Source: Pseudoalteromonas sp. CO133X (GTDB taxonomy: Bacteria > Pseudomonadota > Gammaproteobacteria > Enterobacterales > Alteromonadaceae). Taken from it: a DNA stretch of 64,000 nt. The DNA is taken from positions 121,115 to 185,114 of the forward strand of contig SGPE01000022.1 of assembly GCA_004208945.1 (NCBI GenBank). The letters are read 5' to 3'. The position numbers and the translations under genes were made by a program. The notes under the pieces are model-generated. The model ran no database searches, had not been told where the DNA came from, and was given only the letters and a program-made list of their open reading frames with translations. This document shows, in pieces, positions 2,463 to 63,787 of the stretch (position 1 is the stretch's first letter; the number at the start of each line of letters is the position of its first letter).

Positions 2463-3407
2463 ATGGCCATCCAGTGGTTCCCAGGGCACATGAATAAAGC
2501 CCGTAATGAAATCAAAGAAATTATGCCACAAATGGATGTGATCATTGAGGTGCTTGATGCCCGTATTCCTTACAGCAGTGAAAACCCTATGGTAACAGCG
2601 CTGCGTGGCGATAAGCCGGTCATTAAAATCATGAATAAAGCTGACCTTGCAGACCCTAAATTAACGCAAGCATGGAAAGACTACTTTGAGCAGCAAAGTG
2701 GCGTTAAAGCGATTGATTTTGGTAATGATAAAGCAGGTGAAGTACATCGTATTAATGAGCTTTGTAAAAAACTAGTGCCGCATAAAGTGGGTGCTGATAA
2801 GCAAATTAAAGCCATGATCATGGGTATTCCCAATGTTGGTAAATCAACACTAATTAATACCCTAGCAGGCCGAATTGTAGCAAAAACGGGTAATGAACCT
2901 GCGGTAACTAAAGCTCAGCAACGAATTAAACTTGATGATGGCATTATGCTTTACGACACGCCAGGCATGTTATGGCCAAAAGTAGAAAACGAAAACTCAG
3001 GTTACCGTTTAGGGGCAACGGGTGCTATTCGTGATACTGCTATCGACTACGAAGAAGTGGCAAGTTACACCGCTGAATATTTACTGCATGCATACCCAGA
3101 GCTTTTAAAAAGTCGCTATAAGATTGATGAGCTACCAGAGTCTGACTGGGAGTTTGTTGAAATGGCAGGCAAAAAGCGTGGCTGTATTCGTGGTGGTAAT
3201 CAGATCGATACTTATAAAATGTCTGAAATTCTTATTAATGAATTACGAGATGGCATTATTGGTCGCATTACTATGGAAACACCAACCATGCGTGAAGAAG
3301 AAGAGCAAATGGTTGCACAGCTTCGCGCCGCGTTAGAGGCAAAAAAAGCTGCTAAAGAAGAAGAGAAAAAGCAGCGCCGTGCCCGAGCGCGTAAAAACCG
3401 TCGTTAA
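2463..3407 (+). CDS. rbgA: ribosome biogenesis GTPase RbgA/YlqF family
   Basis: A 314-residue circularly permuted GTPase. Seen in order: N-terminal IQWFPGHMNKA, the G4 motif NKAD near residue 59, the P-loop GIPNVGKST near 121 and the G3 motif DTPG near 165, the order expected of the YlqF/RbgA group. In Bacillus RbgA acts late in 50S subunit assembly. The C-terminal 30 residues are a Lys/Arg/Glu-rich tail probably contacting RNA. The start is supported by TTAGGAG at about 2451-2457. A bidirectional terminator shared with the small RNA locus follows. Confidence 0.93.
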   Translation: MAIQWFPGHMNKARNEIKEIMPQMDVIIEVLDARIPYSSENPMVTALRGDKPVIKIMNKADLADPKLTQAWKDYFEQQSGVKAIDFGNDKAGEVHRINELCKKLVPHKVGADKQIKAMIMGIPNVGKSTLINTLAGRIVAKTGNEPAVTKAQQRIKLDDGIMLYDTPGMLWPKVENENSGYRLGATGAIRDTAIDYEEVASYTAEYLLHAYPELLKSRYKIDELPESDWEFVEMAGKKRGCIRGGNQIDTYKMSEILINELRDGIIGRITMETPTMREEEEQMVAQLRAALEAKKAAKEEEKKQRRARARKNRR

Positions 3408-3432
3408 AATTAAAACGTTAATTTTTAGACAT

Positions 3433-3458
3433 AAAAAAAGCCCTGAAAGGGCTTTTTT
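3433..3458. terminator. bidirectional terminator: rbgA and sRNA copy 1
   Basis: An AGCCCT-gaa-AGGGCT stem is flanked by seven A's on one side and six T's on the other, so it is U-tailed when read from either strand. It ends rbgA on the plus strand and the left-hand small RNA on the minus strand. Confidence 0.85.
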
Positions 3459-3651
3459 AGTTTCATATCTACCGTCACCGATATGAGCAATGTAGCAAGT
3501 AAAATAAGTAGGGGTGCCCACATATTGCCAACATCAAGGGGCGTTGCGGCTAGCAATATGTGAGCTAAGCTTTAACGTGGCGACACGTGTTTCAGGGTCT
3601 TGAAACAATCAGGTTATCCCGTACAAGTCGTAATGCTCTTCCGTCTTGTTG
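3433..3651 (-). ncRNA. ryhB: RyhB-like Fur-regulated small RNA, copy 1
   Basis: Predicted transcript of about 219 nt with no plausible coding frame. It starts 6-7 bases after a GATAAT -10 and ends at a U7 intrinsic terminator. The core ACATTGCTCA (minus strand of 3481-3494) matches the mRNA-pairing core of enterobacterial RyhB, followed by a TCATATC/GATATGA hairpin. Upstream in the RNA are a TGTTTC/GAAACA hairpin and a long stem (3553-3565 with 3516-3528) capping a loop that contains CGCCCCTTGATG. Its size resembles the long Vibrio RyhB (over 200 nt) more than the 90-nt E. coli RNA. Inferred role: repressing iron-using protein mRNAs, with Hfq, when iron is scarce. Seen: promoter, terminator, duplication. 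Inferred: function. Confidence 0.7.
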
Positions 3652-3709
3652 ATATTGATTATCAGTTAGATTTAATAAACTGTCAACATCTAAATAAAAA
3701 TAATTATCA
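3651..3709 (-). promoter_or_regulatory. promoter and Fur boxes of sRNA copy 1
   Basis: Minus strand: TTGACA (3681-3686), exactly 17 bases, GATAAT (3658-3663). A 7-1-7 Fur-like box TAAAAAT-A-ATTATCA lies at 3695-3709, 8 bases upstream of the -35. GATATTGATTATC (3651-3663) over the -10 and start site matches 12 of 13 positions of part of the classical Fur consensus. Two boxes bracketing a strong promoter suggest tight iron repression. Confidence 0.75.
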
Positions 3710-3756
3710 TTTCTATATTTTATTTTTCGACACATTGATTACTTTGTTTCAGACAT

Positions 3757-3966
3757 AAAAAAAGCCCTGCAAGGGCTTTTTTAGTTTCATATCTACCGTC
3801 ACCGATATGAGCAATGTAGCAAGTAGGTGATCACCTGTTGCCAACATCAAGGGGCGTTGCGATCAGCAACAGGCGATCTTAGCTTTATCGTGGGCCACAC
3901 GTGTTTCAGGGTCGAGAAACAAATCAGTTTATTCCGAACAAGTCATAAAGCGCTGCTGACTTGTTG
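3757..3966 (-). ncRNA. ryhB: RyhB-like Fur-regulated small RNA, copy 2
   Basis: Predicted transcript of about 210 nt, a diverged tandem duplicate of the RNA at 3433-3651 with its own promoter and a U7 terminator (AGCCCT-gca-AGGGCT, 3757-3782). The 3' part holding the ACATTGCTCA core (minus strand of 3805-3818), the following hairpin and the terminator is almost identical to copy 1, as are the CGCCCCTTGATG loop and the CCTGAAACACGTG segment. The long central stem (3866-3878 with 3829-3841) differs in sequence but keeps pairing. Copy 2 is upstream of copy 1 in the direction of transcription. The arrangement recalls the tandem PrrF1/PrrF2 RNAs of Pseudomonas, but the core is RyhB-like. Confidence 0.7.
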
Positions 3967-4024
3967 ATAGTGATTATCAATTAGATTTAGCTGTGTGTCA
4001 ACGCCTAACTGAAAATAATTCTCA
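3966..4024 (-). promoter_or_regulatory. promoter and Fur boxes of sRNA copy 2
   Basis: Minus strand: TTGACA (3996-4001), exactly 17 bases, GATAAT (3973-3978), as in copy 1. A Fur-like box TGAAAAT-A-ATTCTCA (4010-4024) is 12 of 14 against TGATAAT-N-ATTATCA and again sits 8 bases upstream of the -35. GATAGTGATTATC (3966-3978) over the -10 and start matches 12 of 13 Fur positions. The remaining gap (4025-4143) holds a TATAAT at 4118-4123 that could serve the kinase gene, and nothing else I can support. Confidence 0.75.
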
Positions 4025-4143: not shown

Positions 4144-7100
4144 ATGTTCTCAATTTGGTCAATAAGCCTACTTGCGATTATTTACCTAGCAATTCTATTT
4201 GCTGTTGCAGGCTGGGCTGATAAAAGAAAAGTACTGCCTTTTAAAGGCTTAACCTATGGCTTATCGCTTGGGGTATATTGTACTTCTTGGGCGTTTTTTG
4301 GCACCACGGCACAAGCAGCATATAACGGCTGGTGGTTAGCACCGACTTATGCTGGCACTATTTTACTGTTTATTTTTGGCTGGCAGGTATATTGTCGCAT
4401 TGCACATATTTGTCGGCAGCAAAAAATAACGTCGATGGCTGATTTTATTGCCACCCGCTACGGACAATCTTCAAGCTTATCAGGGCTAATATCACTTATT
4501 TCTGTGATTGCGATTGTGCCTTATATCTCTTTACAGCTTAGTGCGACCGCACAAAGTATGAATTTACTTACCGATAGAGCCGTCACACAAAGCCATGAAG
4601 TGTGGGCCGATAGCACTTTTTACATCACGCTTGTTTTAGCGTTATTTGCTATTTTGTTTGGTGCAAGGCGGCTAAAACCCAGTGAGCATAACCCTGGCCT
4701 TATTGCGAGTATTGCTTTTGAATCTGTGGTTAAGTTATTGGCATTTGTTGCAGTGGGTTTATATGTGTGCTTTGCATTATTTGACAGCCCCATGGCACTG
4801 TTTGAAAAAGCACAGGCGCTGAATATCGATCAGCAAGTAGCTGTAACACAAAGCCCAACCTATGTGTATGTTGCCCATACATTACTCGGTATTTTGGCAA
4901 CCCTATGTTTGCCAAGGCAGTTTCACATGAGCTTTATCGAAAAAAATAACGATAAAGAATTGGCTTCGGCACGTTGGCTATTTCCGATTTACTTATTACT
5001 TATCAATCTGTTTATTCTACCGATTGCATACGCCGGATTAATTTATTTTCAAGGTCAAGAAGTTGGCTACGATACCTTTGTACTGGCACTTCCTATGGCA
5101 GCTGACAATGCTTTTGTAGCATTACTGGCATTTTTAGGCGGCTTTTCAGCTGCAACCAGTATGGTAATTGTGTCATCAATTGTACTTTCTGTGATGATAA
5201 CCAATGACTTTATAAATCAGTTTATTTTACGCCGCTCGCAGCTTACATCGAGTAGCCGTGGACTCGATAAAAATAACCTTCTACACGCGCGTAAAATCGT
5301 TATCGTACTCATTTTATTACTTAGCTATTTCACTCACCGGGTACTGGGCGAGAGCACAACGCTTGCTAATGTTGGTTTAATGTCGTTTACCTTGGTTGCA
5401 CAATTTTCACCAGCTATGATTATTGGTCTATGGTGGCGACAAGCCTCTTGTAGAGGTGCGCAGCTTGGTATACTAAGTGGCTTTATCATCTGGGGTTACA
5501 CACTATTATTGCCAAACCTAGCAGGCGGATTAGGTAACGATAGCTTGTGGCTCGTGAATGGGCCTTGGGGGATTAGCTGGCTTGCACCCACCAATTTATT
5601 CTCATTAGGCATGGAAAGCATTAGCCAAGCCTTGCTGTTATCGTTAGGTGCGAACTGTTTAGTGTATTTTTTGGTGCCGTTATTTAGTCGTGCAACTTTG
5701 GCTGAACGCTTGCAGAGTAATAAATTTGTTTCTCAATTAAGTGACTCACGGATCAGCAACCACCTACATCCACTTAGTTATCATGATTTAGGAGCTTTAT
5801 TGCAGCGATTTGCCGAGAAAGAGGCCGCGCAATCTCTGGTAAACCATTATTTCCCTGATGATAAAGGTAAGTGGAAACGCCCTGCTAATGTTGAATTAGA
5901 GCTACTGGTTGAGCGTGAGATGTCAGCGGTGATTGGCGGGGCATCGGCACGGCTTATTTTAGATGTAGCTAAAAATGAGCAGCGCCAGCCATTAGAACAA
6001 GTTGCTGAGTTTGTTGATGAAGCAAGTCAAGTTCTTAAATTTAATCGTGACTTACTACAATCAACCATAGAAAACATCCAACAAGGGATCAGTGTAGTCG
6101 ACAGTGAACTGCGACTTGTAGCGTGGAATCAAGGTTATAAGAATATGTTTGCTTACCCTGACGATGCTTTATATATAGGGCGTCCGGTGGCTGATATTAT
6201 TCGTTTTAATGCTGAGCGTGGCCTGTTCAGGGGCGAAAGTGTGACCAGCGAAGTCGAAAAACGTTTAGCGTATTTACGCCAAGGCAGTGCATATAAATAC
6301 CAACGTTCGCACAATGATGGCCGTGTGTTTGAGATGCAAGGTAATCCACTGCCAGGGGGAGGGTTTGTAACAACCTATACAGATATTACTGAATTTGTTA
6401 AGCAACAGAAAGCGCTGACAGAAGCCAATGTTAGCCTGGAGGAAAAAGTAACAGCACGTACATTAGCACTTACTCAAGCAAATCAAGAGCTATCAAAGGC
6501 AAAACAGGTGGCGGAACAAGCAACAGTCAGTAAAACACGCTTTTTTGCTGCTGCGAGTCATGATTTACTTCAGCCCTTCAATGCCGCGAGTTTGTTTTGT
6601 TCATTAATGAATGAAAAAGCACAAAGCACTGAGCTTAAAGAGTTAGCGATGAATATTAAAAATTCATTAGGCAGTGCTGAAGAACTGTTATCGAGTATTT
6701 TAGAACTAACGAAGCTCGATTCAGGTTCGTTTAAAGTACAAATGAGCGAGTTTGCAGCCAGCTCACTTGTAGAGCCGCTGCGCAATGATTATGAAGCGCT
6801 AGCAACTGATAAGGGTTTAAAGTTTATAATTGAGACTTGTGATGTGCGTTTGCACACAGATAAAGCGTTGTTACGTCGAGTATTGCGAAACTTACTCAGT
6901 AATGCCATTCGTTACACTGAGCGAGGCGAAGTACGCTTAAAAATGCATCATGACGATGATGATCATGTGTCATTCATTGTTGAAGATACAGGAATAGGCA
7001 TTGCTGCAAGTGATCAGCAAACCATTTTTCAAGAGTTTAAACAGCTTGGTGCTAAACCAAGTGCTGAAGGGTTAGGGCTAGGGCTTGCAATCACAAAGCG

Positions 7101-7596
7101 TATTTGCGACCTCTTAAAAATCCCTTTAGTGATGGGCTCTGAGCTTGGAAAAGGAACGCAGTTCACTTTAACACTGCCATGTAAGGTCAGCCGTCAAGCG
7201 AGTAAAGAGCAAAGCGCAGAAGCGCAGCAAGAAACAGAGCTTGGTCAACTGCGTATTTGGCTGCTTGATAATGATCGAAATGTGTTAGAGGCATTAAAGC
7301 AGTTACTAGAAAATTGGGGCTGCGAGATCTCCACAGCCACTAATTTAGCAGACCTTGAGCAGTTAAAGGCAAGCCAAGCACTACCACAATTACTGATTAT
7401 CGATTATCAGCTGGATGATGGGGTAACGGGCCTTGAAGTGATTGAGCAAGCAGCCCTTACTGCGTTACCGGCCATCGTTAATACCGCGAATCATGATGAA
7501 GGTATACGTGAGTTAGTGCTCGATGCGGGCTACCCATTGCTTTATAAGCCTCTGAAAGCGCCTGCCTTAAAACGCATGATTAAGCGACTTACTTGA
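4144..7596 (+). CDS. sodium/solute symporter-fused hybrid histidine kinase, CrbS-like
   Basis: A 1150-residue membrane sensor kinase. Domains in order: an SSS/PutP-type symporter domain with about 13 membrane segments (1-540), a PAS domain (about 640-750) and coiled coil, HisKA with ASHDLLQPFNAASLF (phospho-acceptor His806), HATPase with N and G boxes (about 885-1015), and a receiver with acceptor Asp1087 in IIDYQLDDG. Architecture and length match CrbS of Vibrio, which with the LuxR-type regulator CrbR controls acetyl-CoA synthetase and acetate use. I infer a sensor of a small carboxylate or of its uptake. No regulator is adjacent; the LuxR-type regulator at 14945 is a candidate. The ribosome site is weak. 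It abuts a convergent kinase gene with no spacer (TGATCA shared region). Confidence 0.87.
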   Translation: MFSIWSISLLAIIYLAILFAVAGWADKRKVLPFKGLTYGLSLGVYCTSWAFFGTTAQAAYNGWWLAPTYAGTILLFIFGWQVYCRIAHICRQQKITSMADFIATRYGQSSSLSGLISLISVIAIVPYISLQLSATAQSMNLLTDRAVTQSHEVWADSTFYITLVLALFAILFGARRLKPSEHNPGLIASIAFESVVKLLAFVAVGLYVCFALFDSPMALFEKAQALNIDQQVAVTQSPTYVYVAHTLLGILATLCLPRQFHMSFIEKNNDKELASARWLFPIYLLLINLFILPIAYAGLIYFQGQEVGYDTFVLALPMAADNAFVALLAFLGGFSAATSMVIVSSIVLSVMITNDFINQFILRRSQLTSSSRGLDKNNLLHARKIVIVLILLLSYFTHRVLGESTTLANVGLMSFTLVAQFSPAMIIGLWWRQASCRGAQLGILSGFIIWGYTLLLPNLAGGLGNDSLWLVNGPWGISWLAPTNLFSLGMESISQALLLSLGANCLVYFLVPLFSRATLAERLQSNKFVSQLSDSRISNHLHPLSYHDLGALLQRFAEKEAAQSLVNHYFPDDKGKWKRPANVELELLVEREMSAVIGGASARLILDVAKNEQRQPLEQVAEFVDEASQVLKFNRDLLQSTIENIQQGISVVDSELRLVAWNQGYKNMFAYPDDALYIGRPVADIIRFNAERGLFRGESVTSEVEKRLAYLRQGSAYKYQRSHNDGRVFEMQGNPLPGGGFVTTYTDITEFVKQQKALTEANVSLEEKVTARTLALTQANQELSKAKQVAEQATVSKTRFFAAASHDLLQPFNAASLFCSLMNEKAQSTELKELAMNIKNSLGSAEELLSSILELTKLDSGSFKVQMSEFAASSLVEPLRNDYEALATDKGLKFIIETCDVRLHTDKALLRRVLRNLLSNAIRYTERGEVRLKMHHDDDDHVSFIVEDTGIGIAASDQQTIFQEFKQLGAKPSAEGLGLGLAITKRICDLLKIPLVMGSELGKGTQFTLTLPCKVSRQASKEQSAEAQQETELGQLRIWLLDNDRNVLEALKQLLENWGCEISTATNLADLEQLKASQALPQLLIIDYQLDDGVTGLEVIEQAALTALPAIVNTANHDEGIRELVLDAGYPLLYKPLKAPALKRMIKRLT

Positions 7597-63379: not shown

Positions 63380-63455
<76 letters not shown>

Positions 63456-63495
63456 CTTTCCTTTTACCGGAAGTGACTTAGTAAAGAATTTTCGT

Positions 63496-63580
63496 GGAGG
63501 GGTTCCCGAGCGGCCAAAGGGATCAGACTGTAAATCTGACGGCTCAGCCTTCGCTGGTTCGAATCCAGCTCCCTCCACCA
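63496..63580 (+). tRNA. tyrU: tRNA-Tyr (anticodon GTA)
   Basis: An 85-base class II tRNA with acceptor GGAGGGG/CCCTCC, anticodon loop CTGTAAA, an extended variable arm and encoded CCA. Confidence 0.97.
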
Positions 63581-63624
63581 CTTTATTCTTGACGGTTAGA
63601 GGTAGTTTAAGAACAGGTTTCTAT

Positions 63625-63699
<75 letters not shown>

Positions 63700-63711
63700 G
63701 ACTCTGGTGTT

Positions 63712-63787
63712 GCTGATATAGCTCAGTTGGTAGAGCGCACCCTTGGTAAGGGTGAGGTCGGCAGTTCAAATCTGCCTATCAGCACCA
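63712..63787 (+). tRNA. thrT: tRNA-Thr (anticodon GGT)
   Basis: A 76-base cloverleaf with acceptor GCTGATA/TATCAGC, anticodon loop TTGGTAA, AGTTCAAATCT T-arm and encoded CCA. It reads ACC/ACT. Confidence 0.97.

Follow-up and report, generated by a model that had tools for sequence, protein, structure and literature searches.

A candidate Fur-repressed, iron-sparing small RNA family of Pseudoalteromonas with a split pairing module

Two tandem units, A and B, in the genome of Pseudoalteromonas sp. CO133X, together with a third copy, C, elsewhere in the same genome, probably encode a genus-specific, Fur-repressed, trans-acting small RNA with a RyhB-like role in iron sparing. We put the probability of this reading at roughly 85% and regard the RNA as a candidate. 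The reading is built on four observations: the architecture of the genes, a conserved fold, spread through the genus, and conserved complementarity to mRNAs. Pseudoalteromonas is a common marine genus, and the RyhB model of Rfam assigns it no iron-sparing RNA, a gap that the family would fill. No report of an iron-responsive RNA in Pseudoalteromonas was found in the literature searched, which covered few subscription journals. With such an RNA at hand, the iron response of the genus would become directly testable.

Architecture and promoters of the two-unit locus

The window is the whole 64,000-nucleotide stretch of DNA that was analysed. Units A and B lie within it on the minus strand, between a sensor-kinase gene and an MMR_HSR1 GTPase gene that we take to be RbgA. 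The features of the locus, in window coordinates, are as follows.

2463..3407, plus strand: RbgA/YlqF-type GTPase gene (Pfam MMR_HSR1)
3432..3651, minus strand: unit A small RNA, about 220 nt including the U7 tail; predicted start at 3651, placed from the -10
3434..3458, minus strand: unit A terminator stem; being symmetric, it may serve plus-strand rbgA transcripts as well
3470..3479, minus strand: unit A hairpin loop, GGUGACGGUA; predicted partners sodB and rlmN
3481..3500, minus strand: unit A core, ACUUGCUACAUUGCUCAUAU; predicted partners sdhC and petA
3650..3664, minus strand: unit A Fur-type box over the -10, TGATAATCAATATCA; 13/14 to consensus
3658..3663, minus strand: unit A -10, GATAAT; 17-nt spacer to the -35
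3681..3686, minus strand: unit A -35, TTGACA; from the promoter scan
3695..3709, minus strand: unit A upstream Fur-type box, TGATAATTATTTTTA; 12/14 to consensus
3756..3966, minus strand: unit B small RNA, about 211 nt including the U7 tail; predicted start at 3966, placed from the -10
3758..3782, minus strand: unit B terminator stem
3794..3803, minus strand: unit B hairpin loop, GGUGACGGUA; same sequence as the unit A loop
3805..3824, minus strand: unit B core; same sequence as the unit A core
3965..3979, minus strand: unit B Fur-type box over the -10, TGATAATCACTATCA; 13/14 to consensus
3973..3978, minus strand: unit B -10, GATAAT; 17-nt spacer to the -35
3996..4001, minus strand: unit B -35, TTGACA; from the promoter scan
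4010..4024, minus strand: unit B upstream Fur-type box, TGAGAATTATTTTCA; 12/14 to consensus
4144..7596, plus strand: sensor histidine kinase gene, the array's other flank in this genome

An earlier reading of this DNA, made from the sequence alone, had described two minus-strand units about 320 bases apart, each with its own promoter, Fur-type boxes and terminator. Place and strand are as it claimed, with the -35 elements 315 nt apart. Both promoters read TTGACA-17-GATAAT and match the consensus at 11 of 12 positions. Upstream of each lies a 7-1-7 Fur-type match (12/14) that ends 8 nt before the -35, and a second match (13/14) covers each -10; the proposed Fur-type control is thus supported by matches to the Fur consensus at both promoters. 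From predicted start to the end of the U7 tail, the RNAs measure 220 nt (A) and 211 nt (B). They are 82% identical over the aligned part, and their last 75 or so bases are almost identical.

Such Fur-type boxes are rare in this genome. Only three Fur-like sites of at least 13/14 occur in 864 kb of its sequence (the window plus 40 further stretches), and two of the three are the -10 boxes of A and B. At a threshold of at least 12/14 there are 20 sites, six of which fall, by position, in A, B and C. A general promoter scan found four promoters against 2.7 expected, which is weak evidence taken alone. Across the genus, 92 of 94 units have TTGAC-17-[-10], an equal number have a -10 Fur-type box of at least 12/14, and 51 have the upstream box; copy C has two Fur-type boxes at 12/14 in addition to its promoter. 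The RNA appears, then, to carry a Fur-type operator on its own promoter, as members of the class of Fur-repressed iron-sparing RNAs do.

Several other features of the window were observed. A ferritin-like (Dps-type) protein gene lies at 160-633 on the minus strand, about 3 kb from the array, and four tRNA genes are clustered at 63380-63784. The terminators at 3434-3458 and 3758-3782 are both symmetric and could stop transcripts of either strand, that of rbgA included.

Spread and fold across the genus

A DNA search with unit A gave a match in 107 of 108 Pseudoalteromonas genomes. The covariance model R1, which we built on the last 75 nt of the RNA, also matched 107 of 108, at one to five copies each (one copy in 11 genomes, two in 38, three in 34, four in 22, five in 2 and none in 1). 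Elsewhere in the family, where 279 genomes of 51 genera were scanned, R1 found nothing; both many-genome scans ran with stricter filters, under which weak matches may be lost. In a collection of named genomes, an exact 20-mer from the module occurs in 108 stretches, 107 of them from Pseudoalteromonas. The remaining one, from a Bacteroidales bin, lies within a 789-codon open frame and was put down to chance. Promoter and core, looked for in related species, are present genus-wide, and the complete unit from promoter to terminator recurs across the genus. The one genome of the 108 without the RNA in either search (G096) keeps the sodB motif described below; its assembly is in about 180 contigs, and an assembly gap or a recent loss would account for it.

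Arrays consist of one to four units. Of the 50 array loci read (L003 and L002, a duplicate, being left out of this count), 48 have the RbgA gene close by. Copy C lies away from the array, at 1292-1571 of L003 (G000:C11:518156-518435). It has the 3′ module of A and B and a different 5′ part, and its neighbours, judged by eye, are a lipoprotein-like gene and a Sel1-repeat-like gene. Copy C is probably located on a chromid, since the two-contig genomes G082 and G023 carry a family copy on their smaller contig (C2) and C11 is 907 kb long. Many iron genes of Pseudoalteromonas have been placed on the chromid, as parts of one study describe (PMC8496264).

The sequence-only reading overlooked copy C, the hairpin directly after the core and the variable copy number. 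Its "tandem pair" holds for A and B and is too narrow for a genome with three copies in a genus that has one to five. Its suggestion that the two copies have partly different targets is weakened, since A, B and C have one core and one loop and differ in their 5′ parts; A and B may differ in dosage, stability or targets of the 5′ part. In a tree of 32 RNAs, the RbgA-proximal (A) and distal (B) copies of nine genomes separate with support of 97/96, and 14 RNAs from other genomes fall on the B side. In this clade both groups are therefore old and have not been homogenised, and over the nine genomes the two lineages remain distinct despite their identical core and loop. The range of copy numbers would offer material for dosage studies.

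Both units fold more stably than expected, with z-scores of -4.5 (A) and -4.4 (B) and none of 200 shuffles equally stable for either. The fold opens with a 5′ hairpin; next come a GUUUC/GAAAC hairpin, whose loop is GACCC, and an ACGUG/CACGU hairpin. These are followed by a long stem around a GCCCC loop, the core stretch, a seven-pair hairpin with loop GGUGACGGUA, the terminator and a U-rich tail. Covariation was scored on 46 nearer sequences (40 distinct), taken without L003 and loci L034-L053, against a structure drawn from unit A, which biases the test somewhat in its favour. In the 40 distinct rows 95.9% of cells pair, nine of the 20 pairs of the long stem have changed on both sides, and the covariation score was matched by none of 500 shuffles. 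The helix after the core is invariant across these rows and so contributes no covariation evidence. RNAalifold, run on 27 divergent RNAs, recovered only the 3′ hairpins and no pair changed on both sides, since these RNAs cannot be aligned in their 5′ parts.

The stretch UACUUGCUACAUUGCUCAUAUCGGUGACGGUAGAUAUGA is nearly constant across 93 RNAs, a set from which one unit without a start anchor was dropped; rows were also removed for L002 (a duplicate of L001), for identical units and for hits below 100 bits or not spanning the model. A near-invariant pairing module among drifting stems is the pattern of a trans-acting regulator. By mean unpaired probability in the predicted folds, the loop is accessible in A and B alike (0.77 and 0.90); the core is fairly accessible in A (0.64) and partly paired in B (0.38). 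The family is, in sum, a structured non-coding RNA with a terminator, kept in evolution, as are Fur-repressed iron-sparing RNAs.

Predicted pairing with iron-protein mRNAs

The near-invariant module has two pairing parts, a core that holds ACATTGCTCA and the adjacent hairpin loop. Targets were ranked against 760 gene starts sampled from the same genome and called by a simple rule, with duplex energies that disregard target structure. Three of the genes discussed, sodB, sdh and acn, had been proposed as targets by the sequence-only reading; petA and rlmN had not been picked out beforehand. The sdhC and acnB stretches and the sodB locus were sampled deliberately, those of petA and rlmN were not, and sdhC, missed by the gene-start rule, was scored separately against the 760 starts.

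The two parts of the module favour different mRNAs. With the loop alone, sodB ranks first and rlmN second of the 760; with the core alone, sdhC scores better than all 760, and among the 760 petA ranks second and sodB only 606th. For the whole module petA is first, rlmN sixth, sodB 27th and acnB 52nd, and sdhC would be seventh. A narrower first ranking, on 418 starts, had placed petA second, sdhC seventh, sodB 15th and acnB 32nd. Per 1000 base-shuffled module RNAs, 7 do as well as the real one on sdhC, 16 on sodB and 32 on acnB. Among the top 20 by whole-module energy petA and rlmN are the only clear iron proteins, so the energy-only list is noisy and most of its top hits are probably noise. 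A search of the same genome with a core-only wobble pattern was discarded: it gave 25 hits, of which three were the family's own genes, and a reversed control pattern gave 20; the two other exact hits to the core-only pattern both lie in long open frames.

A RyhB-like predicted function is borne out clearly for sdhC and sodB and weakly for acnB. The core is not the only pairing part: it serves for sdhC, and the predicted pairing with sodB uses the neighbouring hairpin loop. On sdhC, the predicted pairing of the core falls in two blocks at -26 to -2, immediately ahead of the GTG start codon; the block GCAAGTAA is kept in 10 of 10 genus genomes. The acnB leader CACGTCACCAAGAGGGCAAT pairs with loop and core at a modest energy; its block CGTCACC is present at all nine starts located among 10 genus genomes, the start in one genome not being located. 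The petA gene encodes the Rieske Fe-S protein of the bc1 complex. Its pairing extends over 33 nt at -30.1 to -33.1 kcal/mol in 10 of 10 genus genomes, and outside the genus it reaches -19.4 to -27.6 in the six of 10 genomes that were readable, four leaders not being located. The petA leader is conserved in any case, and in a gapless complementarity scan of 867 kb petA did not go beyond shuffled RNAs. The radical-SAM enzyme RlmN, also an Fe-S protein, is a possible new iron-sparing target, its pairing having been read in this genome only. A leader stretch of rlmN complementary to the loop, ACCGTCACTGA, lies just upstream of the ribosome site (L346 17426-17440). Taken together, predicted complementarity to iron-protein mRNAs is strong and conserved for sodB and sdhC, conserved for petA and weak for acnB.

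The site in sodB lies inside the coding sequence. The complement of the loop, CTACCGTCAC, takes in codons 5-7 together with the first base of codon 8. The 16 genus genomes in which it was first noticed include two with a changed last base; codon 8, at the edge of the site, varies. Across these 16 genomes codons 5-7 show zero synonymous change, and of the 40 five-codon windows of the gene, only that of codons 3-7 lacks synonymous variation. Among the invariant residues of the protein, a single codon is used by one of 14 leucines, one of seven prolines and two of eight serines, and codons 5, 6 and 7 are among these few. The motif CTACCGTCA occurs in 21 of 22 genus genomes, the remaining one having TTACCGTCA, which still pairs by G-U, and in the sodB of none of 18 genomes from other genera. 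Residue 7 is serine in all 22 genus genomes, alanine in 17 of the 18 others and proline in one. Those first 16 genomes also yielded 11 second SOD genes, all of them without the motif, which fits the sparing of a putative non-iron enzyme. Constraint on codons close to a gene start commonly has other causes. We offer only tentatively the suggestion that the small RNA has shaped the start of the FeSOD gene, locking codons 5-7 of sodB in both codon and amino acid, and that it works as a two-part tool with loop and core directed at different iron targets. The family would offer a clean example, from nature, of an sRNA loop and a targeted coding sequence that have adapted to each other.

These features suggest the following course of regulation. 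When iron is plentiful, Fe-Fur would cover the two boxes and block the promoter; when iron is scarce, the RNA would be made, and its near-invariant 3′ module would pair with the mRNAs of dispensable iron proteins. The core would pair just before the sdhC start codon and with the petA leader, the loop with sodB codons 5-8 and with the rlmN leader beside the ribosome site, and both would pair weakly with acnB. Translation of these mRNAs would thereby be kept from starting, and iron would be spared. The small RNA would presumably use Hfq.

Relation to RyhB and to other known systems

The sequence-only reading had gone further and proposed a duplicated long RyhB. Its observation that the pairing core of RyhB, ACATTGCTCA, is found in both A and B is correct; copy C has it as well, and it is near-invariant in the 93 RNAs. 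The covariance-model check came out otherwise. RF00057 has no match at the locus (781 bp) even at E 10 and none in 107 genus genomes, the E. coli control being positive. Throughout the order it matches 109 of 295 genomes at E 0.001, 79 of the 295 pass its cut-off, and none of the 109 is from the window's family. Conversely, R1 run on 15 RyhB loci reached at best E 0.21, on the opposite strand, and E 1.8 on the strand of the RyhB gene itself, with partial overlap in L075. Other Rfam near-hits at the locus (STnc370, SpF39, STnc50 and others) fell below their gathering scores, and the alignments seen cover the terminator. The proposal of a duplicated RyhB is not supported: the two models miss each other's RNAs, and the common part is 10 nt set in a different architecture. 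By these tests the RNA stands outside RF00057.

It could still be a true RyhB that descended vertically from the RyhB of the order and was lengthened and rearranged while retaining its core. The two share ACATTGCTCA, a Fur-type promoter and a terminator, and RyhB is widespread in the order, with tandem copies in other families; however, neither model finds the other's RNAs, RyhB-matched genomes are missing from the window's own family, and length, hairpins and the part that pairs with sodB all differ. A short core could also converge where both RNAs pair with the same kind of mRNAs. We consider such descent unlikely, though the strongest of the alternatives. One tandem RyhB locus, in another family of the order (L066; G277:C1:4865500-4868000), has three near-identical RyhB-type units about 364 bases apart, each preceded by a Fur-like stretch (by eye) and scoring 32-37 bits against an RF00057 cut-off of 55.

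An iron-regulated RNA with some other role, such as sponging CsrA or another protein, with coincidental matches to mRNAs, is far less probable. The C-rich loops (GACCC, GCCCC) are well kept, with no target found for them, and Pseudoalteromonas has several Csr RNAs: Pf1, Pf2 and Pf3 of P. fuliginea bind CsrA and have 9 to 25 GGA motifs (PMC9927453, PMC11882849). Such an abundance of GGA is not present here, unit A having two and unit B one. The sodB and sdhC mRNAs, named in advance, each come first for one part of the module, and the conservation of the sodB codons also speaks for iron-protein targets. Pf1-Pf3 are likewise small RNAs of the genus, and the passages that describe them in these two papers mention no link to Fur.

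A small conserved protein or a dual-function RNA is the most improbable reading: almost every copy has one frame that runs open through the module (reading TLLISVTVDM), two of the rare variants of this frame are synonymous and both A and B have an in-frame ATG, but such an ATG is present in only 35 of 93 RNAs, 23 have no start at all, no Shine-Dalgarno-like word precedes any of the 35 ATGs, the frame runs into the terminator in most copies and is shifted by a deletion in one, and its openness follows from the fixed bases alone. The coding test on the 93 RNAs thus agrees with the non-coding nature claimed for the units.

The iron-sparing small RNA proposed here has several relatives in function. 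Rfam contains a PrrF family, and whole Rfam scans gave no PrrF match. PrrF1 and PrrF2 of Pseudomonas aeruginosa are tandem siblings, with PrrH as their read-through RNA (PMC4211561). Like them, A and B are tandem siblings with putative Fur regulation and predicted iron-protein targets, and a PrrH-like read-through from B into A is conceivable, whereas the present family has one to five copies and a distant copy. HrrF of Pasteurellaceae (PMC4144887) and BrrF of Burkholderia (PMC7377471) are, in the accounts given there, lineage-specific iron-responsive RNAs without similarity to RyhB, and BrrF is described as having no Fur box of its own (PMC7377471). They resemble the present family, putatively iron-responsive as well, in being restricted to a lineage and unlike RyhB, and differ from it in genus, sequence and arrangement. 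IsrR of Staphylococcus is Fur-regulated, genus-wide and equipped with conserved C-rich loops, by the description in parts of PMC9410917; compared at that level it shares with the present family the genus-wide spread, the C-rich loops and a Fur regulation that is putative here. In the present family, the C-rich loops are not among the pairing parts with the best support.

The closest parallel in predicted function is RyhB of Enterobacteria, Vibrio and Shewanella, with its Fur-type promoter, terminator, ACATTGCTCA core and sodB and sdh targets like those predicted here. In Shewanella, RyhB regulates sodB and not sdhA or acnA, according to passages of PMC5826389. The family of Pseudoalteromonas differs from RyhB in its length of about 215 nt with conserved 5′ hairpins, in its predicted sodB pairing through a hairpin loop, and in its organisation as tandem arrays plus a distant copy. 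Since its predicted role is RyhB-like without membership of RF00057, and HrrF, BrrF and PrrF provide precedents, it is best seen as a new RNA of a known functional kind, a probable genus-specific addition to the class of Fur-repressed iron-sparing RNAs, with the split pairing module as its own apparent trait.
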